From contig SVSK01000018.1 of the NCBI GenBank assembly GCA_015064345.1, positions 1-41,205 on the forward strand: a DNA stretch of 41,205 bases, read 5' to 3'. The position numbers and the translations under genes are program-made. The notes under the pieces were generated by a model. The model saw only the letters and a list, made by a program, of their open reading frames with translations. It had not been told where the DNA came from and did not search any database. Source of the DNA: Oscillospiraceae bacterium. GTDB taxonomy: Bacteria > Bacillota > Clostridia > Oscillospirales > CAG-272. Shown here piece by piece: positions 2,031-36,531 of this stretch (position 1 is its first letter; each line of letters begins with the position of its first letter).

Positions 2031-3572
2031 ATGAAAGCAAGTGAATACAAGATCTCCGCTGAAAAATTCGTTTTCCATTCCTCAGGTGATAACCTCCACG
2101 ACAAGAAGCTGGAAACAAAGCCCGTAACTTACTTCAGAGACGCGCTTAACCGTTTCACAAAGAACAAGGCTTCTATCGTAGCGTTCTTTATCATCGCGTT
2201 CCTCTTCCTCTTCGCTATCCTCGGTCCCATCATCTCCCCCTATCAGGTTAAGGATGAAGACATCAACTACGCTTATGCTCAGCCCAAGAACAAGCTGTTC
2301 TACAATCTGGGTATCAAGTTCTGGGACGGCGGTCAGAATAAGGAAGTTAACAAGGCTACCTACGACCTCTACAGAGGTATTCAGGAAGAAACAGGCAGAA
2401 CCGTTATTATGTCCGAGGTAACCACCCGTGAACAGACTTACATGGGTAAGACCTCTGTGCTCTACAACTTCAGACTTGACACTTACAATGCCGCAGGCGT
2501 TAAGTACGTGCTTCTGAACGAACAGCAGTACGCAGATCTTCAGGCATTCCAGGACGCAAATAACGTTCAGATCATTCTGCCTATCACCGATCCCAAGCTC
2601 CGTCCTCAGGCTGAGCAGGATAAGGAAAACGCCAACATCTGGTACAGAACCAAGCTTGGCGCAGGTCGTAAGACTGAGATCATCTACGACAAGGAAGGCA
2701 ACTTCATTCCGATCTACAAGGCTAACGACGGCAAGGATAACTACACCTCCACAATGTACTGGGAAGGCGACGAAAAGCTTTACAACTATGCTGAAGCAAA
2801 AGACGGCGGCATGTGGAAGATCCGCGTAGACTACAAGGAATACTACGCATATATCAACCGCGACAAGGGTATCTCCGAGCCTCTCTTCATCTTCGGTGCA
2901 AACAACGCAGGTAAGGACATCTTCACCTGTCTTGCATCCGGTGCTCGCTTCTCCTTTATCCTTGCGCTCATCGTTGCATCCGTTAACCTTTGCGTTGGTG
3001 CCATCTACGGTGCTATCGAAGGTTACTACGGCGGTAAGATCGACCTTATCATGGAGAGAATCGTTGACCTTCTTGCGTCCATCCCCTTCATGATCGTTAT
3101 CACACTTCTTAAATACCACTTTGATGCATCTCATATCGTTATCCTGTTCATCTCATTCTTCCTTACAGGTTGGACGGGTATGGCAGGTCGTACAAGAATG
3201 CAGTTCTACCGCTTCAAGAATCAGGAATACGTGCTTGTTGCAAGAACACTGGGCGCTCGCGACCGCAGAATTATGTTCAAGCACATCTTCCCCAACGCTA
3301 TCGGTACTCTTATCACAAGCTCCGTGCTTGTAATCCCGAGCGTTATCTTCTCCGAAACGAGCCTTAGCTATCTGGGAATCATCAACCTGAGCACAGGTAA
3401 TATGACATCCGTGGGTACTCTCCTTGCAACAGGTCAGAACTACCTGTTCACTTACCCCCACATGATCCTCTTCCCCTCACTGTTTATCAGCTTGCTGATG
3501 CTCTGCTTCAACCTCTTCGGTAACGGTCTCCGTGACGCGTTTAACCCCTCTCTCAGAGGTACGGAAGATTAA
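2031..3572 (+). CDS. oppC: Oligopeptide ABC transporter permease OppC-like with large extracytoplasmic insertion
   Basis: The second permease subunit, 513 residues against ~300 for usual OppC. Membrane helix 1 is at ~48-71 (FFIIAFLFLFAILGPII). The canonical region starting with GKDIF at ~294 continues through five helices, with the EAA loop at ~399-425 (YVLVARTLGARDRR). The extra length is a hydrophilic, Tyr/Lys/Asp-rich stretch at ~72-290 which, from the topology, lies outside the cell between helices 1 and 2. It could help dock the binding protein or form its own domain; I recognise no domain in it. The gene directly abuts oppB and is followed by an 88-base gap before oppD. Confidence 0.9.
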   Translation: MKASEYKISAEKFVFHSSGDNLHDKKLETKPVTYFRDALNRFTKNKASIVAFFIIAFLFLFAILGPIISPYQVKDEDINYAYAQPKNKLFYNLGIKFWDGGQNKEVNKATYDLYRGIQEETGRTVIMSEVTTREQTYMGKTSVLYNFRLDTYNAAGVKYVLLNEQQYADLQAFQDANNVQIILPITDPKLRPQAEQDKENANIWYRTKLGAGRKTEIIYDKEGNFIPIYKANDGKDNYTSTMYWEGDEKLYNYAEAKDGGMWKIRVDYKEYYAYINRDKGISEPLFIFGANNAGKDIFTCLASGARFSFILALIVASVNLCVGAIYGAIEGYYGGKIDLIMERIVDLLASIPFMIVITLLKYHFDASHIVILFISFFLTGWTGMAGRTRMQFYRFKNQEYVLVARTLGARDRRIMFKHIFPNAIGTLITSSVLVIPSVIFSETSLSYLGIINLSTGNMTSVGTLLATGQNYLFTYPHMILFPSLFISLLMLCFNLFGNGLRDAFNPSLRGTED

Positions 3573-3605
3573 GGAAACTATTTCTATTAATATTGAAGAT
3601 TGAAT

Positions 3606-3640
3606 GCCGCGTTTTCCGTAAATATCGGGAAATGGGCGGC
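3606..3640 (+). promoter_or_regulatory. Intercistronic stem-loop between oppC and oppD
   Basis: GCCGCGTTTTCCG can pair with CGGGAAATGGGCGGC around the loop TAAATAT, with small mismatches. It ends a few bases before the oppD ribosome-binding site (GGAAAGGAAC) and lacks a T-run. It may tune oppD translation or mRNA processing; no function is shown by the sequence. Confidence 0.4.
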
Positions 3641-3660
3641 GGAAAGGAACGGTCATATCT

Positions 3661-5820
3661 ATGGATAAGAAATTAGAAGTAAAAAATCTCCAGATATCCT
3701 TCCGTACGCAAGGTGGAATTCTTAAAGCCGTAAGAAATATCTCCTTTGACTTAAACAAGGGTGAGACCTTGGCGATCGTTGGTGAGTCCGGCTCAGGTAA
3801 ATCCGTAACAAGTAAAGCTATTATGGGTATCCTTGCCGGTAACTCCATCGTTGAGGGCGGCGAAATCTTATACGACGGACAGGATCTACTCAAGATCACT
3901 GAAGAAGATTATCACAAGATCCGCGGTGACAAAATTGCGATGATCTTCCAGGACCCCATGTCCAGCCTTAACCCTATCATGAGGGTTGGTCAGCAGCTTA
4001 CTGAGGCTATGATACTCAAGGCTAAGACCGGTAAGAGAAACGCAAAGCACGCGTTCAACTCTATGCTGGGCACACTGGGTAAAAATATCAAATCCGCATA
4101 CACCGAGGCAGGTGAAAATAAGTCTGCTGAGGTTGATGCTAAGCTTAAGAAGTTCGACAGCTTCTGTATCAACGCTACAAAGCTTGAAAGAGAGTTCAAC
4201 GAAAAGTACACAAGTGCTATGACTCTCGAGGTTGAGGCGCAGAACGTTGTTCTCATGCTTGAAAAGAACAAGAAGTTCGACGTCTCCGCTGAGCTGAAGA
4301 GCCTTGCAAAGCTTCTTGTTGCATCATACGACGTTGACGTTATCGTAAAGAACGATAATAGCACCGCTGTTCAGGCAGAGCTTAAGGAAGTGGCTGCTCA
4401 GGGCAAGAATGCCGACGTAGCACGCGCACTTGACGCTGCAAGAAAGGTTTACGCTCTTGCAAATGAGGCTGTAAACAAGCAGAAGCCCAACTTCTTCACT
4501 CTCGGCTACTACAAGATGATGCACCCCGGCGTTGACCTTAACAAGATGGACGTTGACGAGATGAACGCTATGACTCGTGAGTTCCTCGATAACGATTTCA
4601 TGCTGGACTTCATCGCTACCGCTGAAAAGGGTGTTAAGTACTCCCACGACAACTCCATCACACTGAAGAAGGAGTGCGTTAAGGATCTTACTGCGGCTCT
4701 TGAATACTTCAAGGCAGGCAAGCTTGATCAGGGGGAGTGTGCGAAGTACGAAAAGAAGCTCTCCGCTCTCGTTGAGGCTGCTATCGACAGACTCTCCGTT
4801 AAGAAGGAAAGTATCGAGTACGTATTCCGCTCCGCTCTCTCTGCCGCTATCAAGGATTACTTTGTTGGCGTAAAGAGAAACCCTGTTGAAGAGAGAAAGT
4901 ATCTCCGCAACAAGGCTAAGTACGATAGAGAATGCAGAAAGGGTCAGACTCCCGACTGGACTCTCGCTCCTCAGGTTGTAATTGACCTTGATCTCAAGCT
5001 TTCCAATATCGTAAAGATCATCGAAAACCTCATCGCTCACTACAATGAGAATATCGAAAACCACGAAAATCAGAAGTTCAACGTAAACGCTCGCGTTATC
5101 GAGATCATCGACTACCTCAAGGACCAGGCTTCCAAGTTCGTTGTTAAGATGAACAAGAGAATCGCCAAGGCTAAGGCTATCAAGCTCCTTGACGAGGTTG
5201 GTATTCCCGAGCCCGCAACTCGTTTCCGTCAGTTCCCCTTCGAGCTGTCCGGTGGTATGAGACAGAGAATCGTTATCGCGATCGCACTGTCCGCTAACCC
5301 TGACATCCTTATCTGCGACGAGCCTACAACAGCTCTCGACGTTACAATTCAGGCGCAGATCCTTGAGCTTATCAACCAGATCAAGGCTCAGAGAAACCTC
5401 TCCGTTATCTTCATCACTCACAACATGGGTGTTGTTGCTAACATGGCTGACAGAATTGCCGTTATGTACGCAGGTAAGATCATCGAGCACGGTACTGCAA
5501 ACGAGATCTTCTACGAGCCCGCTCATCCTTATACTTGGGCGCTACTCAGCTCCATGCCGGACCTTCAGACCACTGAAAAGCTGGAATCCATCCCCGGTAC
5601 ACCTCCGAACATGATCTATCCTCCCAAGGGTGACGCGTTCGCAGCAAGAAACAAGTACGCTCTCGACATCGACTTCGAGGTTGAACCTCCGCTGTTCGAG
5701 ATCACAGATACACACTACGCCGCTACATGGCTGCTCCACCCCAATGCACCCGCTGTTGAAATGCCTCAGCTTATCAAGGCCCGCATTGAAAGAATGAAGA
5801 AGGAGAGAGAAAATGGCTGA
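3661..5820 (+). CDS. oppD: Oligopeptide ABC transporter ATPase OppD-like with ~380-residue insertion
   Basis: An ATP-binding subunit energising peptide import. The Walker A motif GESGSGKS is at 41-48, the Q-loop IFQDPMSSLNP at ~95-105, the ABC signature LSGGMRQR at 529-536, and Walker B ILICDEPTTALD follows; the usual C-terminal oligopeptide-transporter extension (HPYTWALLSSMP, then IPGTPPNM) is present. The protein has 719 residues against ~330 normally. The excess is one block at ~124-505, between the Q-loop and the signature motif, mostly Lys/Glu/Ala-rich and probably helical. All catalytic motifs are intact, so the protein is probably functional. Its last codons overlap the start of oppF by 8 bases. 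The insertion was not recognisable as a known domain. Confidence 0.9.
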   Translation: MDKKLEVKNLQISFRTQGGILKAVRNISFDLNKGETLAIVGESGSGKSVTSKAIMGILAGNSIVEGGEILYDGQDLLKITEEDYHKIRGDKIAMIFQDPMSSLNPIMRVGQQLTEAMILKAKTGKRNAKHAFNSMLGTLGKNIKSAYTEAGENKSAEVDAKLKKFDSFCINATKLEREFNEKYTSAMTLEVEAQNVVLMLEKNKKFDVSAELKSLAKLLVASYDVDVIVKNDNSTAVQAELKEVAAQGKNADVARALDAARKVYALANEAVNKQKPNFFTLGYYKMMHPGVDLNKMDVDEMNAMTREFLDNDFMLDFIATAEKGVKYSHDNSITLKKECVKDLTAALEYFKAGKLDQGECAKYEKKLSALVEAAIDRLSVKKESIEYVFRSALSAAIKDYFVGVKRNPVEERKYLRNKAKYDRECRKGQTPDWTLAPQVVIDLDLKLSNIVKIIENLIAHYNENIENHENQKFNVNARVIEIIDYLKDQASKFVVKMNKRIAKAKAIKLLDEVGIPEPATRFRQFPFELSGGMRQRIVIAIALSANPDILICDEPTTALDVTIQAQILELINQIKAQRNLSVIFITHNMGVVANMADRIAVMYAGKIIEHGTANEIFYEPAHPYTWALLSSMPDLQTTEKLESIPGTPPNMIYPPKGDAFAARNKYALDIDFEVEPPLFEITDTHYAATWLLHPNAPAVEMPQLIKARIERMKKERENG

Positions 5821-7330: not shown

Positions 7331-7405
7331 TTGTGTAAAATATTGATGTTTTAGTGGGAAAATTTGCTAAAACGAAAATTTTGTTGCAAAATATTAACAT
7401 GACAT

Positions 7406-7490
7406 TGTCATCCTGAGTGGAGCGAAGCGTAATCGAAGGATCTCTATTAGATTCTTCGACTTCGTACTGCGTACTTCGCTCAGAATGACA
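7406..7490. repeat. Family B palindromic repeat, copy 1
   Basis: An ~85-base imperfect palindrome with ends TGTCATCCTGAG and CTCAGAATGACA. Inside are GGAGCGAAGCGTAATCGAAG and a matching CTTCGACTTCG arm. It lies between the opp terminator and the end of mnmE, so it separates convergent genes. There is no open reading frame; it looks like a non-autonomous mobile or REP-like element. Confidence 0.8.
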
Positions 7491-8954: not shown

Positions 8955-8976
8955 GTGATTTTCCTTTGGAAAACAA

Positions 8977-9011
8977 AATAATAAAGAATAAATAATAAAT
9001 AATAGATAAAA
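8977..9011. repeat. 7-nt degenerate array (AATAAAN type) upstream of mnmE
   Basis: Tandem 7-base units such as AATAAAG, AATAAAT, AATAAAT and AATAGAT, beginning ~22 bases before the mnmE start. The same type recurs upstream of gyrA and the PfkB gene and near the GH95 gene. Confidence 0.7.
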
Positions 9012-9068
9012 AAGATGAAAACTTTTATAATTTAGTGAGGTTTTTGTGTGAAATATTAACCTGCACGT

Positions 9069-9135
9069 TGTCATTCTGACCTCGAAGAATCTGATAGAGA
9101 TCCTTCGATTACGCTTCGCTCCACTCAGGATGACA
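9069..9135. repeat. Family B palindromic repeat, copy 2
   Basis: TGTCATTCTGACC to ACTCAGGATGACA, 67 bases, with the shared GAAGAATCTGATAGAGATCC core. It lies in the gap upstream of mnmE. Confidence 0.8.
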
Positions 9136-9148
9136 AACAGGCAACCAC

Positions 9149-9206
9149 TGTCATTCTGAGCGAAGTACGCAGTACGAAGTCGAAGAATCTATCGGAGATC
9201 CTTTAA
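9149..9206. repeat. Family B repeat, copy 3, truncated
   Basis: It begins with TGTCATTCTGAGCGAAG and shows the core GAAGAATCTATCGGAGATCC. It then runs into AT-rich DNA without the closing GGATGACA end, so it is a partial copy. Confidence 0.7.
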
Positions 9207-9256
9207 TTTACGTGTAACCATTCTAATACAATTACTTTTTGAACACAGTGAAAAAA

Positions 9257-9945: not shown

Positions 9946-10043
9946 TGTTTTTCCTTTATGTTGGTTTATAAAAACGGATATTTAACATCTACCACGACGT
10001 TCAGTTTGAATTTCTTCATTTAGAAAGTCAAAACCTCAAAGTC

Positions 10044-10190
10044 TGTCATTCTGAGCCTGTCGAAGAATCTAATGAGATCCTTCGGCACGGGTAGGGTATA
10101 TAGAAATCAACACACACAACCGAAGTTGACCCTACCCACCGAGAACTTCGTTCTCGTTTTGTTCACCCTAAATCCCTACTCAGGATGACA
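10044..10190. repeat. Family B repeat, copy 4, carrying an inner inverted repeat
   Basis: The ends TGTCATTCTGAGC and ACTCAGGATGACA enclose an inner element bounded by GGGTAGGGT and ACCCTACCC. A small hairpin GAGAACTTCGTTCTC follows it. The inner element is placed as in copies 9 and 10, after the arm ending GATCCTTCG. Confidence 0.75.
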
Positions 10191-10245
10191 ATGTAAAGTC
10201 GTTGAGGTTGGGATTTCTATAGCGGGAGGGGAGCGCTTCGCTAAA

Positions 10246-10392
10246 AGAATAAATAATAAATAATAGAGAATAAATAATAAATATTTGGGGTAGCGAAACC
10301 GTCATTTCATCCGCTGACGGGAAGATACAATATCTCTTTGTCGTAGGGACAGGTTACGATACTTTGTATCGTTGCCCGACTGTCCGTCGTTC
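10246..10392. repeat. Family C repeat, copy 1, with preceding 7-nt array
   Basis: An AATAAAT/AATAGAG array (10246-10285) runs into the Family C body. The body holds GTCATTTCATCCGCTGACGG, then GTAGGGACAG, a hairpin TACGATAC-TTT-GTATCGT, and CTGTCC closing a stem with GGACAG. The gap 9946-10571 holds only this and Family B copies; I see no gene in it. Confidence 0.7.
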
Positions 10393-10434
10393 AGGTTTGA
10401 ATTTCTCCACCCCGGAACGTAAAACCCCAAAGTC

Positions 10435-10507
10435 TGTCATTCTGAGCCTGTCGAAGAATCTAATGAGATCCTTCGACTTCACACTCCGTGTTCCGCTCAG
10501 GATGACA
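10435..10507. repeat. Family B palindromic repeat, copy 5
   Basis: TGTCATTCTGAGCCTGTCGA to CTCAGGATGACA, 73 bases. It is preceded by a shared leader (TTTCTCCACCCCGGAACGT) also found before copies at 13296, 13423 and 36404. Confidence 0.8.
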
Positions 10508-13085: not shown

Positions 13086-13110
13086 ATGAGCTCCTTTTGG
13101 GAAAATTAAA

Positions 13111-13252
13111 GAAGAAAGAATAAATAATTGATAAAAAAGAATAAATAATAGAGAATAAAGAATAAATATTTGTGGTAGCGAAACCGTCATTTCATCCGCT
13201 GACGGGAAATTACCTGCTAACTGTAGGGGCGATCATCGATCGTCCACCATCG
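13111..13252. repeat. Family C repeat, copy 2, with preceding 7-nt array
   Basis: Heptamers (AATAAAT, AATAGAG, AATAAAG) at 13111-13171 lead into the Family C body with CATCCGCTGACGGG, then GTAGGGGCGATC, loop ATC, GATCGTCC. The hairpin sequence differs from copy 1 but pairing is kept. The array starts ~25 bases before gyrA. Confidence 0.7.
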
Positions 13253-13295
13253 AGGTCTGAATTTCTCCACCCCGGAACGTCAAAACCCCAAAGTC

Positions 13296-13365
13296 TGTCA
13301 TTCTGAGCCTGTCGAAGAATCTAATGGAGATCCTTCGATTACGCTCCGCTTCACTCAGGATGACA
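13296..13365. repeat. Family B palindromic repeat, copy 6
   Basis: TGTCATTCTGAGCC to CTCAGGATGACA, 70 bases. With its leader it is almost identical to copy 7, about 127 bases away, which points to a recent tandem duplication. Confidence 0.85.
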
Positions 13366-13422
13366 TCGTAAAGTCGTTCGGGTTTGAATTTCTCCACCCC
13401 GGAACGTCAAAACCCCAAAGTC

Positions 13423-13492
13423 TGTCATTCTGAGCCTGTCGAAGAATCTAATGGAGATCCTTCGATTACGCTCCGCTTCACTCAGGATGACA
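13423..13492. repeat. Family B palindromic repeat, copy 7
   Basis: 70 bases, near-identical to copy 6 including the upstream leader from ~13383. A degraded tail with a CACAGGATGACAG end follows at 13527-13540. Confidence 0.85.
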
Positions 13493-13555
13493 AGATAAAC
13501 CGCACGCTCGCACAAGATGGGTTTCATCACAGGATGACAGCCAAACCCTAACCAT

Positions 13556-13701
13556 TGTCATTCTGAGCCTGTCGAAGAATCTAATGGAGATCCTTCGATT
13601 GGGTAGGGTATTATGAGTACAAAACCCATACATTACACTGACCCTACCCGTGAGAACTTCGTTCTCTTTATGTTTTGCTGTTATTTTCACTTAGGATGAC
13701 A
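13556..13701. repeat. Family B repeat, copy 8, carrying an inner inverted repeat
   Basis: Outer ends TGTCATTCTGAGCC and TTAGGATGACA; inner GGGTAGGGT and ACCCTACCC with GAGAACTTCGTTCTC next to it. The ~30 bases between the inner arms differ from copies 4 and 9 while the arms match, so the loop is variable. Confidence 0.75.
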
Positions 13702-13780: not shown

Positions 13781-14689
13781 TTACTCTCCAGCAACGTAGT
13801 CTCCTGCGACACTTGCGGCATAAGCCATGGAGTCGGGGATGCTCATCTTAACGCCGTAACGGGCGTAAACGAATGCGCCGAGGAATGTGTCTCCGGCACC
13901 TTTGAGACGAACGACCTTGCGCTTTTCCGTGGGGAAAAATTCGCTCTTTCTCTCGCCGTCCACTGTCTCGGTAAAGAACGCGCCGTCTCCCGCCATTGTG
14001 GTAATAACGGAAATTCCCTCGTTCAGAGACTCAGCCGCTGAAACAACCTCATCCTCTGTGAGAAGCTCACGTTCAACCAGAGCGGACAGCTCATCACGGT
14101 TAGGCTTTATAAGATCCGGGGGTATTTCACCGCTTACAGCGATTTTTAGCGCTTCTCCGTCTGCATCAATGATGACGATACCACCGAGAGCCTTAACTTT
14201 CCCGCAAAGCTCGGCAGGATAGGACTTTTTTACATCCTTCGGACAGCTGCCTGCAATGATAAGCACGTCTCCTGCTTCAACGGAGTCGAGGATGAGCTTT
14301 TCAACATCCTTTATCGCTTCTCCCACAGGTGTTCCGGGGGCATTTACCTCAACGGACTCACCTACGTCGGGGATAACGGAGACGTTCACTCTCGTGTTTT
14401 CTTTAATCGGCACGGCGTACGTCTCCATTCCCTCGCTGAGAAGAATATCGGAGAGCAGTTTTCCCGTCGCACCGCCAAGAGGAGCCACATTCATGAGTGA
14501 TATTTTGTTGTTTTCTTCAGTAAAATGTGAATTTTTTATACAATTCATTATTGCGCGGCACACGTTGATTCCTTTACCGCCTGCGTTCACCTTGTGAGAA
14601 GCCGCACGGGAAGTAACGCCGATCTGCACGTCTTTTACGGAATATTCAATGTCCACCGCGGGAGAAAGAGTGAGTGTAATGATTTTCAT
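13781..14689 (-). CDS. PfkB-family sugar kinase, 1-phosphofructokinase type
   Basis: A 302-residue PfkB-family kinase that transfers phosphate from ATP to a sugar phosphate. The N-terminal signature AGGKGINVCRA is at 36-46. The C-terminal signature with the catalytic Asp is KGAGDTF at ~263-269. The start MKIITLTLSPAVDIEY matches 1-phosphofructokinase/tagatose-6-phosphate kinase proteins (FruK/LacC). The substrate is probably fructose 1-phosphate, but no fruA or fruR gene is nearby to support this. No Shine-Dalgarno sequence is visible: a 7-nt repeat array runs right up to the ATG, which is odd for this genome. It sits alone between gyrA and gyrB, an unusual place for a sugar kinase. Confidence 0.88.
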   Translation of the reverse strand: MKIITLTLSPAVDIEYSVKDVQIGVTSRAASHKVNAGGKGINVCRAIMNCIKNSHFTEENNKISLMNVAPLGGATGKLLSDILLSEGMETYAVPIKENTRVNVSVIPDVGESVEVNAPGTPVGEAIKDVEKLILDSVEAGDVLIIAGSCPKDVKKSYPAELCGKVKALGGIVIIDADGEALKIAVSGEIPPDLIKPNRDELSALVERELLTEDEVVSAAESLNEGISVITTMAGDGAFFTETVDGERKSEFFPTEKRKVVRLKGAGDTFLGAFVYARYGVKMSIPDSMAYAASVAGDYVAGE

Positions 14690-14728
14690 AAATAATAAAT
14701 AATAGAGAATAAATAATAAATAATAGAT
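14690..14728. repeat. 7-nt degenerate array directly against the PfkB start codon
   Basis: AATAAAT, AATAGAG, AATAAAT, AATAAAT, AATAGAT from the start codon outward. It occupies the place where the ribosome-binding site should be. Confidence 0.7.
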
Positions 14729-14788
14729 ATTTTTTGGCGAAAATTTAATGATATTGCGTTTGTTTTGTGTAAAATGTTAACTAAATCT

Positions 14789-14934
14789 TGTCATTCTGAG
14801 CCTGTCGAAGAATCTATCATAGATCCTTCGATACGGGTAGGGTATATAGAAATCAACACACAACTGAAGTTGACCCTACCCACCGAGAACTTCGTTCTCG
14901 TTTAGCTCACCTTAAATCTACACTCAGGATGACA
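14789..14934. repeat. Family B repeat, copy 9, carrying an inner inverted repeat
   Basis: Same nested layout as copy 4 and nearly the same inner sequence (GGGTAGGGTATATAGAAATC to GACCCTACCC). It is followed by a remnant with CACAGGATGACAG, as after copy 7. Confidence 0.75.
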
Positions 14935-14998
14935 AGATAAATCGCACGCTCGTGCAAGATGGGATTACCTCACAGGATGACAGCAAAACCCCAACCAC

Positions 14999-15078
14999 TG
15001 TCATTCTGAGCGAAACACGAAGTGTGTAGTCGAAGAATCTCGAATAGATCCTTCTATTTCTCTACGCTCAGAATGACA
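14999..15078. repeat. Family B palindromic repeat, copy 10
   Basis: TGTCATTCTGAGCG to CGCTCAGAATGACA, 80 bases, ending 16 bases after the gyrB stop codon. As a hairpin it could end gyrB transcription. The gap 14690-15094 holds only repeats. Confidence 0.8.
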
Positions 15079-17336: not shown

Positions 17337-17590
17337 ACTCAAAAAGTAGATTTTATTAAATAGGTGCGGGTGAATTAAAGTTAAAGCTGCACGGAAAACA
17401 AGATGGGGATTCTTAAGGGGAAGAATCGGAGATGTTGCAGTTGAATTTTCAAATCTATAACAATTGGCGGGATTCATGCGTGTGGAAGTATAAGCAATAA
17501 TAAATATCCCGTCCTCCTTCCCCTTAAGTGGACGGTGATTCACAAGAGGTGTGGACATGGAACACCTCTTGTGCGCCCCACGCGTAGTGC
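17337..17590 (+). repeat. Structured element, Family A, copy 1
   Basis: A ~250-base element with several possible helices. Helix 1 pairs CTTAAGGGGAAG (17412-17423) with CTTCCCCTTAAG (17517-17528); the 5' arm can instead fold on itself as GATTCTT/AAGAATC. Helix 2 pairs CGGGAT (17468) with ATCCCG (17506), and CGTCC/GGACG closes around the helix-1 3' arm. Helix 3 is CACAAGAGGTGT (17541) with ACACCTCTTGTG (17562). Helix 4 is CAC-GCGTA-GTG (~17579). There is no credible reading frame. Families D and E follow it. Type (RNA, or DNA hairpins of a mobile element) is unknown. Confidence 0.65.
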
Positions 17591-17651
17591 CAAAAATAGG
17601 TTGAAAGAGCAAGCGCGGTTGAATAGTAAAGCGGAATGAATATAGAATAGT

Positions 17652-17714
17652 GCAGACTTTGGTCTCCTCCTCCGTCATACTTCGTATGCCACCTCCCCCC
17701 ACAGGGGAAGGCTT
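17652..17714 (+). repeat. Family D repeat, copy 1
   Basis: GCAGACTTTGGTCTCC, then the hairpin ATAC-TTC-GTAT, then ACCTCCCCCCACAGGGGAAG. It follows Family A copy 1 just as copy 2 follows Family A copy 5, so A and D may form one composite unit. Confidence 0.65.
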
Positions 17715-17749
17715 ATAAAGACATGGAGTGCAGTTTGATACTGTTAGAC

Positions 17750-17835
17750 GGAGAGGATGATTTATCAAACGCAGTTTGATGGCTCCCCTACGGGTGTTGC
17801 GGTGATTCACGGGGTTTCAAAGGGCACTCCCTTTT
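17750..17835 (+). repeat. Family E repeat, copy 1, next to the remB stop codon
   Basis: Hairpin ATCAAAC-GCA-GTTTGAT inside GGAG/CTCC-type arms, then CTACGGG, GGTGATTCACGGGG and a terminal hairpin AAAGGG-CACT-CCCTTT. It ends 8 bases from the remB stop. The gap 17180-17842 holds only repeats. Confidence 0.6.
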
Positions 17836-20139: not shown

Positions 20140-20306
20140 AAAATATAAAGTAAAGTTAAAACAAGAGGGGATTCCAAAGGGGAGAACAGCGCAGAATAGA
20201 TATCACAAAGTGATAGATATTCAAGCTCTTCTTCCCTTGGTGCCGGGTGATTCTTAAGAGGTGCCGGCATGGGTACCTCTTAAGTTCTCCACGAAAGTGG
20301 AGACAA
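20140..20306 (+). repeat. Structured element, Family A, copy 2 (divergent)
   Basis: Same layout as copy 1 with changed sequence. GATTCCAAAGGGGAG pairs with CTTCCCTTGG, and an internal hairpin uses ATCAC-AAA-GTGAT. GGTGATTC recurs. Helix 3 becomes TTAAGAGGT with ACCTCTTAA, and helix 4 becomes CTCCAC-GAAA-GTGGAG with a GNRA tetraloop. Pairings are kept by compensating changes. Confidence 0.6.
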
Positions 20307-20349
20307 GGATGAAAGTGTAAGTTTGGTTGAAGAGTGAAGCGGTCAATAT

Positions 20350-20434
20350 TGTCATCCTGAGTGGAGCGTAGCGTAATCGAAGGATCTATTTGAGATTCTT
20401 CGACTGCACACTTCGTGTTACGCTCAGAATGACA
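20350..20434. repeat. Family B palindromic repeat, copy 11
   Basis: TGTCATCCTGAGTGGAGCG to CGCTCAGAATGACA, 85 bases, inserted after Family A copy 2, where Family D stands in copies 1 and 5. Confidence 0.8.
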
Positions 20435-20481
20435 AAACCCGAAGTGCAGTTAACAATGGTGGAGCGCAGCCTGACCCTGTA

Positions 20482-20562
20482 TGACGGGAGGAGTAAGCCA
20501 CCTCCCCTACCGAGAAAGGGGTAAATGGGTGGTATTCGGGGATCATAAGGGTACCCCCTTAT
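20482..20562 (+). repeat. Family E repeat, copy 3, abutting the dnaA stop codon
   Basis: GGGAGGAGTAAGCCACCTCCCC, then CTACCGAG, GGTGGTATTCGGGG and terminal hairpin TAAGGGTACCCCCTTA (20546-20561). The last bases touch the dnaA stop codon. Compared with copy 1 the terminal stem changes from AAAGGG/CCCTTT to TAAGGG/CCCTTA. Confidence 0.6.
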
Positions 20563-22168: not shown

Positions 22169-22270
22169 CTCGATATTGTCCGATATTTTTCCCACGAGGG
22201 AGTTTTTGTTCTGTGATTTTTTGATATCTTTCTCTTGTATATTTAGATTTATTTTTTTGTTCAACCTTGT

Positions 22271-22412
22271 CTACGCTATGCGCTAGGCACCAGAGAGATA
22301 TCACCGGCGATATCTCTCTGGACTCTCAGCCGCTTAAGGAAGGGCAAGAGCTCATTTCGATTAATGAATTAATCTCACTCGCTGTTTCCCTTCCTTAAGA
22401 ATCCATCCCTTT
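22271..22412 (-). repeat. Structured element, Family A, copy 3 (variant core)
   Basis: Read on the minus strand: GATTCTTAAGGAAGGG pairs with CCCTTCCTTAAG, the internal hairpin is GATTAAT-TC-ATTAATC, then GAGAGTC. Helix 3 is CAGAGAGATATC with GATATCTCTCTG, and helix 4 is CTA-GCGCA-TAG. The layout matches copy 1 but with different paired bases throughout. It lies inverted between dnaA and copy 4. Confidence 0.6.
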
Positions 22413-22559
22413 GTCTCTGCTGCAGCCAAAACATAAAGCGACTCACGCCAATGGAGAAATCAGTGTTTGCGGCTGACACGCCTGTATGTTTGAACTTGCT
22501 TGTGAAGTTCGATTGACACAGTCAATAAATCGGCTCGTTTGCTTACAGGTTTTAGCGAA

Positions 22560-22812
22560 ACGAAAAATCCAAGAAGGGGATTCACCGAGATTCGACGTAG
22601 TCGAACTCGTCGAGTTGCCCTTGGCAACCTCGGTTAAGTTGGAAGAATTGGAGAAGTTGCAGTAAAGATTACAGATTGCACATAATTGGCGGGATTCGTG
22701 CGAGTACAATTATCAACAAAAGTAAATATCCCGTCCTCCTTCCCCTTAAGTGGACGGTGATTCACAAGAGGTGTGGACATGGAACACCTCTTGTGCGCCC
22801 CACGCGTAGTGC
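22560..22812 (+). repeat. Structured element, Family A, copy 4 (with inserted branched hairpin)
   Basis: The 3' half (22700-22812) is nearly identical to copies 1 and 5. In the 5' arm, directly after GATTC, a 51-base block (22584-22634) is inserted. ACCGAG/CTCGGT encloses three small hairpins: CGAC-GTA-GTCG, AACTC-GT-GAGTT-like, and TTGCC-CTT-GGCAA. The gap 22094-23054 otherwise holds the dnaA and rpmH promoters. Confidence 0.6.
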
Positions 22813-22948
22813 AAAAAAATTAGGTTAAACAAACAATTTCAGTTGAAGAGCAAAGCTGTAAGAATAATCTCCCAAAACCCCAATATATTTCGCATATATT
22901 AATAAAGATAAAACAAAATAAAAATCTCAAAAAAATGCAAAAAATCCC

Positions 22949-27080: not shown

Positions 27081-27331
27081 CAAAAAGTATTTTTTTATTA
27101 AATAGGAGCAATGCGTAAAGATAAAGTTACACGAAAAGCCAAGATGGGGATTCTTAAGGGGAAGAATCAAAGAAGTTGCAGTTAAGTTTTCAGATCAATA
27201 ACAATTGGCGGGATTCGAGCGGATGGAAGTATTGACAATATTATATATCCCGTCCTCCTTCCCCTTAAGTGGACGGTGATTCACAAGAGGTGTGGACATG
27301 GAACACCTCTTGTGCGCCCCACGCGTAGTGC
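27081..27331 (+). repeat. Structured element, Family A, copy 5
   Basis: Almost identical to copy 1: helix-1 arms at 27153-27164 and 27258-27269, helix 3 at 27282-27293 and 27303-27314, helix 4 in ACGCGTAGTG. Homology with copy 1 starts in TCAAAAAGTA and runs on through Family D. Confidence 0.65.
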
Positions 27332-27392
27332 AAAAAATAGGTTAAATAAGCAAGTTCGGTTGAAGAGTAAAGCGGAATGAATATAGAATAAT

Positions 27393-27455
27393 GCAGACTT
27401 TGGTCTCCTCCTCCGTCATACTTCGTATGCCACCTCCCCCCACAGGGGAAGGCTT
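27393..27455 (+). repeat. Family D repeat, copy 2
   Basis: Same as copy 1 base for base over most of its length, at the same distance from Family A copy 5. Confidence 0.65.
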
Positions 27456-27556
27456 GGGAAGGCTGAAGAAGGCATGGAAGACTTGATGTATTCTTGAACC
27501 TTGCACGACGGACGATAAAGCGGTATGAATATAATAAGCAATATTTTCACTAAACT

Positions 27557-27600
27557 GGAGGATGATTTATCAAACGCAGTTTGATGGCTCCCCTACGGGT
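27557..27600 (+). repeat. Family E repeat, copy 2
   Basis: GGAGGATGATTTATCAAACG with the hairpin ATCAAAC-GCA-GTTTGAT, then GGCTCCCCTACGGG. It lacks the terminal hairpin of copy 1. Downstream 27601-27764 is AT-rich and I see nothing more there. Confidence 0.6.
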
Positions 27601-31593: not shown

Positions 31594-31642
31594 CCCTCTT
31601 TTCTCGGTAGGGGAGGTGGCTTGCCCCTCCCGTCGAACAATT
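31594..31642 (-). repeat. Family E repeat, copy 5
   Basis: On the minus strand GGGAGGGGCAAGCCACCTCC then CCTACCGAG, the same subtype as the copy beside dnaA (20482). Confidence 0.55.
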
Positions 31643-31719: not shown

Positions 31720-31785
31720 AATTACGATTTCACTCAATATACACCGCGCTACTCTTCATATGAAATTGTTCTTTAACTTCATTTT

Positions 31786-31970
31786 TTGCACTACGCGTGG
31801 GGCGCACAAGAGGAATGGACGCTGTGCGCTAGGCACCAAAGAGGTATCTCCGGCGATACCTCTCTGGACTCTCAGCCGCTTAAGGAAAGGGAAGAGCTCA
31901 TTTCGATTGACTAGTCAATCTCATTCACTGTTCCCTCTCCTTAAGAATCCTCTCCTTTGTATTTCGTGTA
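31786..31970 (-). repeat. Structured element, Family A, copy 6 (chimeric)
   Basis: On the minus strand the core is like copy 3: GATTCTTAAGGAGAGGG/CCCTTTCCTTAAG, internal hairpin GATTGACTAGTCAATC, helix 3 AGAGGTATC/GATACCTCT. It then continues into a tail like copy 1 (CCTCTTGTGCGCCCCACGCG and TAGTGCAAAAAA). So it joins parts of both subtypes. Confidence 0.6.
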
Positions 31971-31989
31971 ACTTAAACTCTCGCATTTC

Positions 31990-32037
31990 TCCTATTTATT
32001 CTATTTTATTTATTCTTTATTCTTTATTCTTTATTCT
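31990..32037. repeat. 7-nt degenerate array running into the GH95 stop codon
   Basis: On the minus strand, GAGAATAAAGAATAAAGAAT and onward; the stop codon of the GH95 gene is itself part of the first unit. Confidence 0.65.
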
Positions 32038-34661
32038 CCAAGATACTCCTCTGCCTGTGCGCGGTATTCGCATACCATGTTCAGCTGGCGGATCCATGCG
32101 CGGTAGCGGTCTCTCTCAAGGGCAGTGGAGTGATTCAGCGTCACCCATGCGCCGCCGGAGGACGCGTCAAATGTATCAGAGCGAGTGATCTTGTAGGTGA
32201 CCGTCTCAACCTTTGAGAAGTCCAGACTGCGGTCAATATACTCGCCGCCGTGGATGTTTATTCCGATGAGGTCATATGTGGGGGAAGAATCCGTTGCGCG
32301 CCATACGTTGACCGGGGCATCGTAATCCCATGTGATCTTCAGCTCCCGTGTCGCCTTGACGGATGTGGGATATTCGCTCTTTTCCCATGCGGGGATAGCG
32401 GTGATAAGGTAGTCCTCTCCTGCCGCGGTGTCAAACTCGATTCGGTTTTCGTCTATCTTTTTGTAGGGGAAGCCGATATTTGCCCCTGCAATGCCGTGAT
32501 ACTTCAGCTTGCAAACGCCGCCGTTTCCTGAGTGGATCTTCATTTCCGTAGCACAGCCGCCTGACCACTTAACGTCGAACACAAATCCGCCGCGGGCGCA
32601 AAGTCCACTGTAGCTGCCCTCATCCCAATCGTCGGGTATACAGGGCAGAGGAGAAATGTACTTTTCATGGCTCTGGAGCAGCATTTCAGCCACACCGGAG
32701 CTTCCGCCAAGGTTGCCGTCGATTTGGAACGGGGGATGTGTGTCCCACAAGTTGGGCAGGGTGCGGAGTCCGAGAAGATTGGTATAAAGCTTGTACGCAC
32801 GGTTGCCGTCGCCTGTTCTCGCCCAAGCGTTCAGTCGGTGAGCCAGCGCCCATCCTGTAGACTCATCGGAGCGGTAATCAAGGGAGATCTTTGCCGCGTC
32901 AAGCCATGCGGGAGTGTCGCTGGAAATGCTCGTACCGGGGTAGAGACCCACAAGCTGGGAAATGTGGCGGTGTCTGTACTCGCCAATCTCGCCGTAGAAC
33001 TTTTCCTCGCGGTATTCCTTGATCTGACCGCTCCAGCCCACCTGTACGGGATCGTACTTGTCAAGCTGTGCTCGAACGTCCGCGATCGCACGTCTATCTT
33101 TTTCGGGAAGTGTGTCCTCGCCGAGGATGTCAACGCATTTTAAGAGATCGTTTGCGTTTTCCCAGATCATCTGCTGGTCGAATGCGCAACCTACTGTGTG
33201 GTGATACTGCACCTTGCCGGGAACCCAGTCGTTGTCGCTGTTTGAGATGATCTGCTCGGGGGATGCGGAGAAAGCGGAGAGATAAAGTCCGTCGTAGTTT
33301 CTCACGCAGCGCATCAGGTGCTTTGCCATGGAGAGCAGGGTGGGGTAAACGTACTCACGGAGAACGGTTTTGTCCCCTGTGAAGTCGTAATATTCCCAAA
33401 ACAGCTTGGATGTGAGCCCACCTGTGCCGGGACCTGAATGACCGCCGGGGGCTGTGGTGAGGTAAGCATAGCTTGCGGTACCGATAGTCCAGCCGCATTC
33501 ACCGGGCTCGTCTGTGTAGTTCTCGGGGATGTATTCCTTTATATATTCTGCCGCGTACTTTTCAGCCACAGGGCGGAACGCAAGGTTGAAATCACGGTAT
33601 GCGGGGAAGGTTTCGGCAAGGTTTCCGATAAATGCGGGCCAGTAGTTCATCTGAACGTTGATGTTGTGCCAGTAGCCGCTTCCCCAGGGAGATTCATCGT
33701 GGCAGTTCCACACGCCCTGGAGTGTAGCAGGGAGACATCCCTCGCGGGAAGAGGAGAGAAGCAGGTATCTGCCGTACTGGAAGTAGAGAACTTCAAGATA
33801 TCGGCTGTGTTTTCCCTCAGAATATTCCTTCAGTAGCTCGTCCGTCATGAGAGAGGGAACTTCAGTCTCTCCAAGCTCCAGCTCCACTCTGCCGAATATC
33901 TCGGAAAAATCCGCAAGGTGACGACTCTTCAGCTCGTCATATGTATATGCACAAGCTTTTTCCATAATACCGCACACGATGGGATGGGGATCGAAGTCGC
34001 GGAGCTTCTTTTTGTCGTCCTCAATGAGGAAAACCTCAGGTCGCAGCTCGTAGTTGGTCGCCCCTGTGAAGATGAAGTAAGTATCCGTTGCACCGTCAAT
34101 AGCAAGTCTGCCGCATTTTTCCGTTACCGTACCGTCGGAGAAGACGCGGAGCTGACCCTCGAAGTTGATATTCCAGAACTTCATATTTCCGCGCATTGTG
34201 ATGAGGTTTCCGTCTATGATGATCTCGCCTGTCTTTGCTCTTTCGGGGTGGTCATTGACAAAGGGAACTTCAAGCTCTGCTTCATAGCTGATTTTACCTG
34301 TGGAGGTGATTCTACCAACAAGTGCGCGGTCGGGGTAGGTCATGAAGTAGGTTCTCTCAACATCAACACCGCCGATGTTGTACTTAACGTAAGCCATTCC
34401 GTCGCCGAGAGTGAGTCCGCGCTCGTAGCCGCCGACCTCATCAAAGGTGTGAGGGAAATGGAGATATATTTCTGCGAAATTGTTAAGTCCCCCGAAGTGC
34501 CAAGGGTTCTCAAGAGAGTTTTCTGTTATCTGGATTCGTTCCTTTTCCACGCCGCCGAACACGTTGCCGCCGAAGTGTGAGCAGCCGATGGGCATGGAGT
34601 AGTTTTCCCAACCCTCAGCAGAGTCGGGTGCAGGAGATGAGTAGCGAAGATTAAGCTTCAT
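32031..34661 (-). CDS. Glycoside hydrolase family 95 protein (alpha-L-fucosidase-like)
   Basis: An 876-residue GH95-type enzyme. The N-terminal domain begins MKLNLRYSSPAPDSAEGWENY. The (alpha/alpha)6 domain holds the residues used for catalysis in the family: NIN in HNINVQMNYWPA (~331), SPE at ~467, and Asp in HPPFQIDGNLGG (~647). No signal peptide is seen, so it probably acts in the cytoplasm on imported oligosaccharides. GH95 includes fucosidases and galactosidases, so the sugar is not fixed. The start at 34661 has TTTTGGAGG upstream; the frame upstream of it is repeat DNA. It has its own promoter. Confidence 0.9.
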   Translation of the reverse strand: MKLNLRYSSPAPDSAEGWENYSMPIGCSHFGGNVFGGVEKERIQITENSLENPWHFGGLNNFAEIYLHFPHTFDEVGGYERGLTLGDGMAYVKYNIGGVDVERTYFMTYPDRALVGRITSTGKISYEAELEVPFVNDHPERAKTGEIIIDGNLITMRGNMKFWNINFEGQLRVFSDGTVTEKCGRLAIDGATDTYFIFTGATNYELRPEVFLIEDDKKKLRDFDPHPIVCGIMEKACAYTYDELKSRHLADFSEIFGRVELELGETEVPSLMTDELLKEYSEGKHSRYLEVLYFQYGRYLLLSSSREGCLPATLQGVWNCHDESPWGSGYWHNINVQMNYWPAFIGNLAETFPAYRDFNLAFRPVAEKYAAEYIKEYIPENYTDEPGECGWTIGTASYAYLTTAPGGHSGPGTGGLTSKLFWEYYDFTGDKTVLREYVYPTLLSMAKHLMRCVRNYDGLYLSAFSASPEQIISNSDNDWVPGKVQYHHTVGCAFDQQMIWENANDLLKCVDILGEDTLPEKDRRAIADVRAQLDKYDPVQVGWSGQIKEYREEKFYGEIGEYRHRHISQLVGLYPGTSISSDTPAWLDAAKISLDYRSDESTGWALAHRLNAWARTGDGNRAYKLYTNLLGLRTLPNLWDTHPPFQIDGNLGGSSGVAEMLLQSHEKYISPLPCIPDDWDEGSYSGLCARGGFVFDVKWSGGCATEMKIHSGNGGVCKLKYHGIAGANIGFPYKKIDENRIEFDTAAGEDYLITAIPAWEKSEYPTSVKATRELKITWDYDAPVNVWRATDSSPTYDLIGINIHGGEYIDRSLDFSKVETVTYKITRSDTFDASSGGAWVTLNHSTALERDRYRAWIRQLNMVCEYRAQAEEYLGE

Positions 34662-34673
34662 TTTGGCCTCCAA

Positions 34674-34722
34674 AAGATAATATGTAGAGAATAAATAATA
34701 GATAATAAAGAATAAAGAAGAA
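34674..34722. repeat. 7-nt degenerate array upstream of the GH95 gene
   Basis: GAATAAA/AATAGAT units between the ribosome-binding site and the promoter, so inside the 5' leader of the mRNA. Confidence 0.6.
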
Positions 34723-34831
34723 ATATTATGTTCAGCGGGGGGATGATGTGTGGCGACCAACACGCAATACACGCTACAATGCAGTGCAAATCGTTTTTTC
34801 TGCGCGAGAGGATTTCTTCTTTCTCCTCTAA

Positions 34832-34860
34832 ATTATACCACAGGGGCGAGAGGGTGTCAA
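34832..34860 (-). promoter_or_regulatory. Promoter of the GH95 gene
   Basis: On the minus strand TTGACA (34855-34860), a 17-base spacer, TATAAT (34832-34837), ~170 bases upstream of the start. Confidence 0.85.
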
Positions 34861-34905
34861 TCGGAGTTGCAAGTGCTGCGCTAAAAGAAAACGAGCGCTT
34901 CGCTA

Positions 34906-35035
34906 AAAGAATAAAGAATAGAGAAGAAAGAATAAAGAATAAATATTTGGCGCACCGAAAACCGCCATTTCATCCGCTGACGGGAAAATTTCGACTAACC
35001 CGTAGGGACAGACGTCCTCGGCTGTCCGTCGAACA
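34906..35035. repeat. Family C repeat, copy 3, with preceding 7-nt array
   Basis: Heptamers (34906-34946), then GGCGCACCGAAAACCGCCAT, CATCCGCTGACGGG, ACTAACCCGTAGGG, a stem GGACAG/CTGTCC with an inner hairpin. Confidence 0.7.
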
Positions 35036-36356: not shown

Positions 36357-36403
36357 CGTGCAGGTTGGGATTTCTCCACCCCAGAGCGTCAATCCCCAGA
36401 GTT

Positions 36404-36479
36404 TGTCATCCTGAGCCTGTCGAAGGATCTCAAAAACAGATTCTTCGACTGCACACTCCGTGTTCCGCTCAGAATGACA
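36404..36479. repeat. Family B palindromic repeat, copy 12
   Basis: TGTCATCCTGAGCC to CTCAGAATGACA, 76 bases, with the same leader (TTTCTCCACCCC) as the copies near gyrA. The gap 36213-36575 is otherwise repeats and a terminator. Confidence 0.8.
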
Positions 36480-36531
36480 AGGCAAAGCGATCCTCCCGTC
36501 GTTCAGGTTGGGATTTCTTCACCACAACAAC

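Follow-up and report, generated by a model that had tools for sequence, protein, structure and literature searches.

Structured interspersed repeats are a known kind of bacterial sequence. REP, BIME and REPIN elements are units of 20-100 bp with a RAYT (TnpA-REP) transposase. The BOX elements of Streptococcus consist of boxA, boxB and boxC in a one-direction A-Bn-C array (PMC3049150), and MRSC-65-2 forms one long stem that contains UYCCGG repeats (PMC11109978). The repeats analysed here, referred to as family A, belong to this kind and are absent from Rfam. No part of the window matched any of 4227 Rfam families at gathering score, and two copies tested at E<=10 yielded weak sub-threshold matches to unrelated families and nothing else; there being no credible match, the family is as unrecognised as the initial annotation had it. 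No description of it was found in the literature searched (supplementary files left out). The family is large and apparently undescribed.

The window, the whole stretch of DNA that was analysed (41,205 nucleotides), comes from a 2.0-Mb, 79% complete genome in 84 contigs of a member of the Oscillospirales, which are major gut and rumen bacteria. Six copies had been described in it, starting at 17337, 20140, 22271, 22560, 27081 and 31786 (copies 1 to 6, respectively), and they sit in or beside the gyrB-dnaN-dnaA-rpmH region, as judged from Pfam. All six were found in the window by two covariance models, R1 (each at E<=6.9e-14) and R2 (E<=1e-19). R1 was built from 15 copies of the source genome, three of the six among them, and the R2 alignment includes every one of the six; the matches are thus in part built in.

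Copy 1 (type A; 17397..17601, plus strand) lies in the gyrB-dnaN intergenic region. Its long-range helix P1 pairs 17412-17423 with 17517-17528, the strong hairpin P3 pairs 17541-17552 with 17562-17573, and the small terminal hairpin P4 pairs 17579-17581 with 17587-17589; it is without the linker-loop pseudoknot described below, and repeat similarity spans ca. 17340-17640. Copy 2 (type B; 20160..20311, plus strand), in the dnaN-dnaA intergenic region, has a pseudoknot of TGCCGG (20241-20246) with CCGGCA (20264-20269), P3 at 20253-20284 and a P4 of CTCCAC-GAAA-GTGGAG at 20287-20302. Copies 3 and 4 form a divergent pair. The left arm, copy 3 (type C, with GAGAGTC; 22262..22416, minus strand), lies upstream of dnaA and has a pseudoknot of CGGC with GCCG; the right arm, copy 4 (type A; 22565..22823, R1 match 22669-22823, plus strand), lies upstream of rpmH, is without a pseudoknot and has a tail to ca. 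22858. The two facing heads are separated by a spacer (22417..22564) of the form ACTCACGCCAATGG ... GGCTCGTTTGCTTACAGG ... GAAACG, and a similar spacer is present at L005, L006 and L014. Copy 5 (type A; 27128..27342, R1 match 27200-27342, plus strand), flanked by the genes for Jag and a cell-wall hydrolase, shares 87% identity with copy 1 over 300 bp. Copy 6 (31777..31975 as a whole, minus strand) has a type C core at 31808-31962 with the pseudoknot CGGC/GCCG, and a second, type-A helix-4 half with its tail (31777-31813) is fused at the 3' side of this core.

The helix-3 pairs quoted in the initial annotation were correct, while the layout it ascribed to all six copies needs two corrections. 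Helix 1 is broken in copy 4, where another hairpin (ACCGAG...CTCGGT) is nested inside its 5' strand; the same insert occurs in L009. In copy 6, whose sequence continues into the second helix-4 half, helix 4 is imperfect (CTA versus CAG).

Other repeats were seen in the window. A second interspersed hairpin family, TGTCATTCTGAG ... GAAGAATCT ... AGATCCTTCGA ... CTCAGGATGACA, has several copies in both orientations, at 7404-7490, 9082-9208, 10004-10084, 10395-10475, 13254-13632, 14999-15069, 20348-20434 and 36364-36487. An inverted repeat, GACGGGAGG...CCTCCCCTACCG, links 20478-20517 with 31600-31639 (90% complementary). The regions downstream of copies 1 and 5 (17640-17800 and 27380-27600) have in common the sequence GGTCTCCTCCTCCGTCATACTTCGTATGCCACCTCCCCC...GGGGAAGGCTT, with a 43-bp identical stretch at 17753/27558, and this looks like yet another repeat family. 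Tracts of short GAATAAA/AATAAA-like repeats are located at 8961-9020, 10222-10295, 13093-13168, 14668-14767, 31974-32048 and 34657-34990; in several family A copies of the source genome, such tracts immediately adjoin the head side.

Covariation was assessed on an alignment (A4) of 125 rows, 118 of them distinct, with 30 base pairs. Changes on both sides of a pair amounted to 619 cells, versus 206 +/- 16 after shuffling and 49-112 after sliding, and the covariation score was 0.396, versus 0.138 and 0.035-0.071, respectively, with all these counts biased towards the structure to which the alignment was fitted. The weakest measure was the number of further pair types (72 versus 66.6), a value attained in 11 of 500 shuffles. 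Among the 118 distinct copies, 98.6% of P3 cells, 86.8% of P1 cells and 69.9% of P4 cells were paired, and the two outer helix-4 pairs were mostly unpaired. Double-sided changes were seen in 27 of the 30 pairs, and so the earlier observation that paired bases differ between subtypes while pairing stays extends to the larger set. The strong covariation over 118 distinct copies supports selection on structure in a multi-helix intergenic element, as had been proposed.

Every difference between subtypes was at first taken for a point compensation; inspection by eye suggests that, in part, whole helices were swapped as modules. The same P2, the variable hairpin inside P1, was found within different P1 helices, and a given P3 was likewise combined with various P1 or P4 helices; a GATTC/GAGTC-like motif stands ahead of both P1 and P3 (also by eye). 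Whole extra hairpin modules lie inside P1 or P3 in L009, L011, L014, L016 and L029. In the last four of these loci, all from the source genome, a different structured module is present inside family A copies, comprising a short hairpin, e.g., GAGAACGAAGTTCTC, and, after it, a long one, GGGCAGGG...CCCTGCCC or GGGTGGAAT...ATTCCACCC. Similar-looking sequence occurs in the window at 10112-10197 and 14856-14941.

The initial annotation, right in describing a structured element, missed a pseudoknot. The linker that precedes P3 has a complement in the loop of P3, and this match takes many different forms, which include, besides those of the window, TGGAG/CTCCA (L015), GTGTTG/CAACAC (L027), GGAGC/GCTCC (L035) and GCGCG/CGCGC (L058). 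An uninterrupted Watson-Crick run of at least five linker-loop pairs was found in 43 of the 78 distinct copies that were parsed, versus a mean of 5.6 and a maximum of 13 in 300 shuffles; with G.U allowed, a run of at least four was found in 68 of 78 (shuffle mean 43). The P3 parser failed on 4 of the 125 rows and mis-parsed some others: the 10 copies without a run of four, even with G.U, comprise five mis-parsed ones and five type-A loops, one of them in a window copy. The type-A loops (GGACATGGA) fail to pair with the linker of the same copy; three window copies out of six have such loops, and it is thus the commonest subtype of the window that is without the pseudoknot.

Mismatches within stems indicate which strand is selected. 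In stems located by Watson-Crick score alone, P3 of 78 copies contained 31 G.U and 1 A.C mismatches, and P1 of 44 distinct copies contained 15 G.U, 1 A.C and 15 others. The sum, 46 G.U versus 2 A.C, corresponds to a binomial p of ~1e-11, a value that is overstated since related copies are not independent. Because a G.U on one strand is an A.C on the other, the preponderance of G.U indicates that one defined strand is under selection, namely the outward strand of each arm, in single-stranded form (RNA or ssDNA).

The earlier reading was incomplete rather than wrong in taking single copies as the unit, whereas close neighbours form divergent pairs. With duplicated loci removed, distinct neighbours less than 600 bp apart were arranged as '-+' in 29 cases, as '+-' in three and on the same strand in none; all three '+-' neighbours belong to one congener (G006), where they lie within rows of alternating arms. 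The genes flanking the 29 pairs were oriented '-+' in six cases, '+-' in six, '--' in six and '++' in five, with six undetermined. In 24 of 27 listed pairs, the first nine bases of the two P3 stems were not the same (in two of these pairs, only the ninth differed), and, by eye, units of G012, G246 and G294 combine one arm from each of two kinds. G265 has a single unit, whose arms are 83% identical inverted repeats. Taken together, the units have the inverted arms, apparently non-coding content, multiple copies and intergenic location by which MITEs are recognised; a mechanical ORF call of at least 120 aa overlaps 10 of the 29 distinct pairs. No target-site duplication was seen by eye at five pairs of the source genome, whose unit ends are approximate.

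The family proved far larger than six copies once a covariance model was built and the source genome and its relatives were searched. BLASTN with copy 5 as query gave 40 matches in the source genome. With at most 77 candidates scored per genome, R1 (E<=0.01) gave 62 matches there and 19-75 matches in each of 10 of 24 congeners; no copies were detected in the other 14 by this model, which is tuned to the source species. In 15 genomes from other families, R1 produced a single match, in one genome (G029, E=0.009, L042), and this match is doubtful. R2, whose 125 rows come from many species, was run on 297 genomes of the order with 12 candidates scored per genome; it matched 37 of them at E<=0.001 and 21 at E<=1e-5, the source genome being counted in both. 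Inspected by eye, such matches had the full layout or a clear pair in L215, L217 and L231, and merely one or two hairpins in L216, L220, L221, L229, L230 and L232. In a class-wide sample of 393 genomes (nine candidates scored per genome), one genome besides the source matched at E<=1e-5; at least 20 of the unmatched genomes are from the same order, and the family is therefore patchy within the order too. Among the matches listed, the named genomes with one exact P3 pattern were rumen and gut Oscillospiraceae/Clostridia MAGs and cultured Agathobaculum; this single pattern matched no viral contigs. Two loci of a genome from another family of the same class (L276 and L278, G364) carry two-hairpin elements with a GGATTC-CTTAAGG layout, their cores near-identical at the two places, and these are possibly a distant relative of family A.

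The nearest relative of a copy was in its own genome for 109 of 118 copies (13% expected by chance), and this was also so at the dnaA-rpmH interval, which was occupied in all five species with a readable site (the source species, G008, G012, G015 and G022). When G006 was included, the gyrB-dnaN interval was occupied in four of six species and dnaN-dnaA in two of six; a counterpart of copy 2 was not found at dnaN-dnaA of G006. A copy in G246 (R2 E=1.7e-11) stands beside a gene that we take to be dtd, and none was found at this site in the eight congeners examined. Such absences at orthologous sites, together with same-genome similarity, show that copies are gained or lost, and that they are homogenised or multiplied within genomes. 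The family has multiplied independently in several gut bacteria.

We consider it likely, with a probability of about 0.6, that family A is made up of MITE-like repeat elements that are non-autonomous and have two strand-specifically folding ends, since a mobile two-armed element accounts for the copy number, the orientation-blind placement, the within-genome similarity and the presence or absence at sites. A complete unit would be ca. 400-700 bp long, with two arms that face each other head to head and are related but in most cases not identical. In each arm, the strand that reads outward is predicted to fold into P1, which follows a GATTC-like motif and encloses P2, then, beyond a short linker and a second GATTC-like motif, into P3, whose loop would pair with the linker, P4 and a tail. 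Single copies would be half units, or units with one arm decayed. The strand-specific folding of the ends suggests recognition as single strand: a trans-acting enzyme probably binds the folded ends as its substrate and thereby probably brings about transposition of the unit, or of a copy of it, into intergenic DNA.

Neither an autonomous partner nor a transposase was found, and no ORF-carrying version occurred among the loci read. In the 11 carriers within the genus, whose genomes are 70-91% complete, Y1_Tnp (PF01797) was missing from seven and RVT_1 (PF00078) from eight, in both cases including the source genome, and TnpB (PF07282) was found in none; TnpB exceeded the cut-off in one of 25 genomes of the genus (G021), in which no copies were detected. 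IS200/RAYT, reverse transcriptase and TnpB are thus unsupported as partners by co-occurrence with carriers. Two copies 1.9 kb apart on contig C15 of G006 were considered as an autonomous element and rejected, the intervening ORF (3351-4628) being, to judge from its sequence, a cation/proton antiporter gene rather than one for a transposase. We put forward, as a tentative and rather doubtful extension, that family A is a bacterial mobile element of a new kind: an enzyme with no relation to the HUH/IS200, TnpB or reverse-transcriptase systems would act on a conserved pseudoknotted fold, formed either at the 3' terminus of each DNA strand or by an RNA read outward, and the element would have persisted across much of the order.

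Occupancy of dnaA-rpmH in five of five species exceeds what random insertion would suggest, and G012 and G022 have terminator-like hairpins close to the arms, a feature that RNA genes could show; both observations count against mobility. They fit the main rival, in which the arms are divergent pairs of small-RNA genes, each transcribed outward into a pseudoknotted functional RNA, cellular or selfish, with gene conversion homogenising the copies. The bias for G.U over A.C on the outward strand agrees with this, as do the GAAA/GAATA-type P4 loops of some copies and the A-rich stretch that follows P4. Of the 36 GGAAG-terminators at the loci of G012 and G022, 26 are no more than 150 bp from a P3 and 8 of the remaining 10 are 267-320 bp away; by eye they tend to face the 3' ends of genes. 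This terminator evidence is weak, however, since the loci were picked for carrying elements, which makes the control a weak one, and of the 308 generic A-stem-T patterns at the same loci, 152 were also near a P3 (92/155 and 60/153). Moreover, the stretch 22200-22900, in which the window pair lies, contains two promoters versus 1.5 expected, which is not above chance, and no terminator-like site; gene orientation is not stable; and 19-75 copies per genome, with presence and absence at sites, are not what such genes would lead one to expect. We therefore regard transcription into small RNAs as unlikely.

The repeated occupancy of dnaA-rpmH (5/5) and gyrB-dnaN (4/6), and the terminator-like hairpins by the arms in two species, would also fit non-mobile sites with a role at the level of the chromosome (organisation, replication, termination or insulation), homogenised by gene conversion. 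Such a role is improbable given that sites are gained or lost, that pairs sit among genes of every orientation, and that R1, tuned as it is to the source species, finds none in 14 of 24 congeners. Even the covariation could in principle be a by-product of hairpin-templated repair (quasi-palindrome correction) rather than of selection, P3 being a near-perfect palindrome and hairpins seeming to be exchanged as modules. That process, however, is expected to be strand-symmetric, which the G.U and A.C mismatch counts are not, and the linker-loop pseudoknot and long-range P1 would be hard to template by a simple hairpin; we consider this explanation very improbable.

The interest of family A, MITE-like by our preferred reading, lies in its pseudoknot, its asymmetric paired arms and its missing enzyme. 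It provides a clean covariation data set along with an unusual two-armed architecture, and some Oscillospirales genomes hold dozens of units. Should the ends act as folded single strands, the known routes by which small elements spread would be widened; should the arms be transcribed, they would make up a sizeable new family of small RNAs.

Comparison with described systems reveals both likenesses and differences. Like family A, REP, BIME and REPIN elements are intergenic hairpins with a short 5' motif that occur as inverted pairs in species-specific populations, but family A has units of 400-700 bp and multi-helix pseudoknotted arms, and 7 of its 11 carriers are without a Y1 transposase. BOX elements are likewise composite and modular, with many copies, a predicted RNA fold and variable internal modules, and are thought to be moved in trans; the modular helices of family A resemble them, whereas its facing arms and covarying pseudoknot set it apart, by description, from the BOX array (PMC3049150). 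MRSC-65-2 resembles family A in being a structured motif that covaries, occurs in many copies and has no consistent orientation to genes, and family A differs from it in having a multi-helix pseudoknotted arm; this comparison covers MRSC-65-2 alone of a study that counts 249 other such motifs (PMC11109978). Prokaryotic MITEs are, like family A, short, non-coding and intergenic, with inverted arms and stable stem-loops; family A differs in that no parental IS or target duplication was seen at the loci inspected and in that its arms are usually non-identical and strand-specifically folded (PMC10969869).
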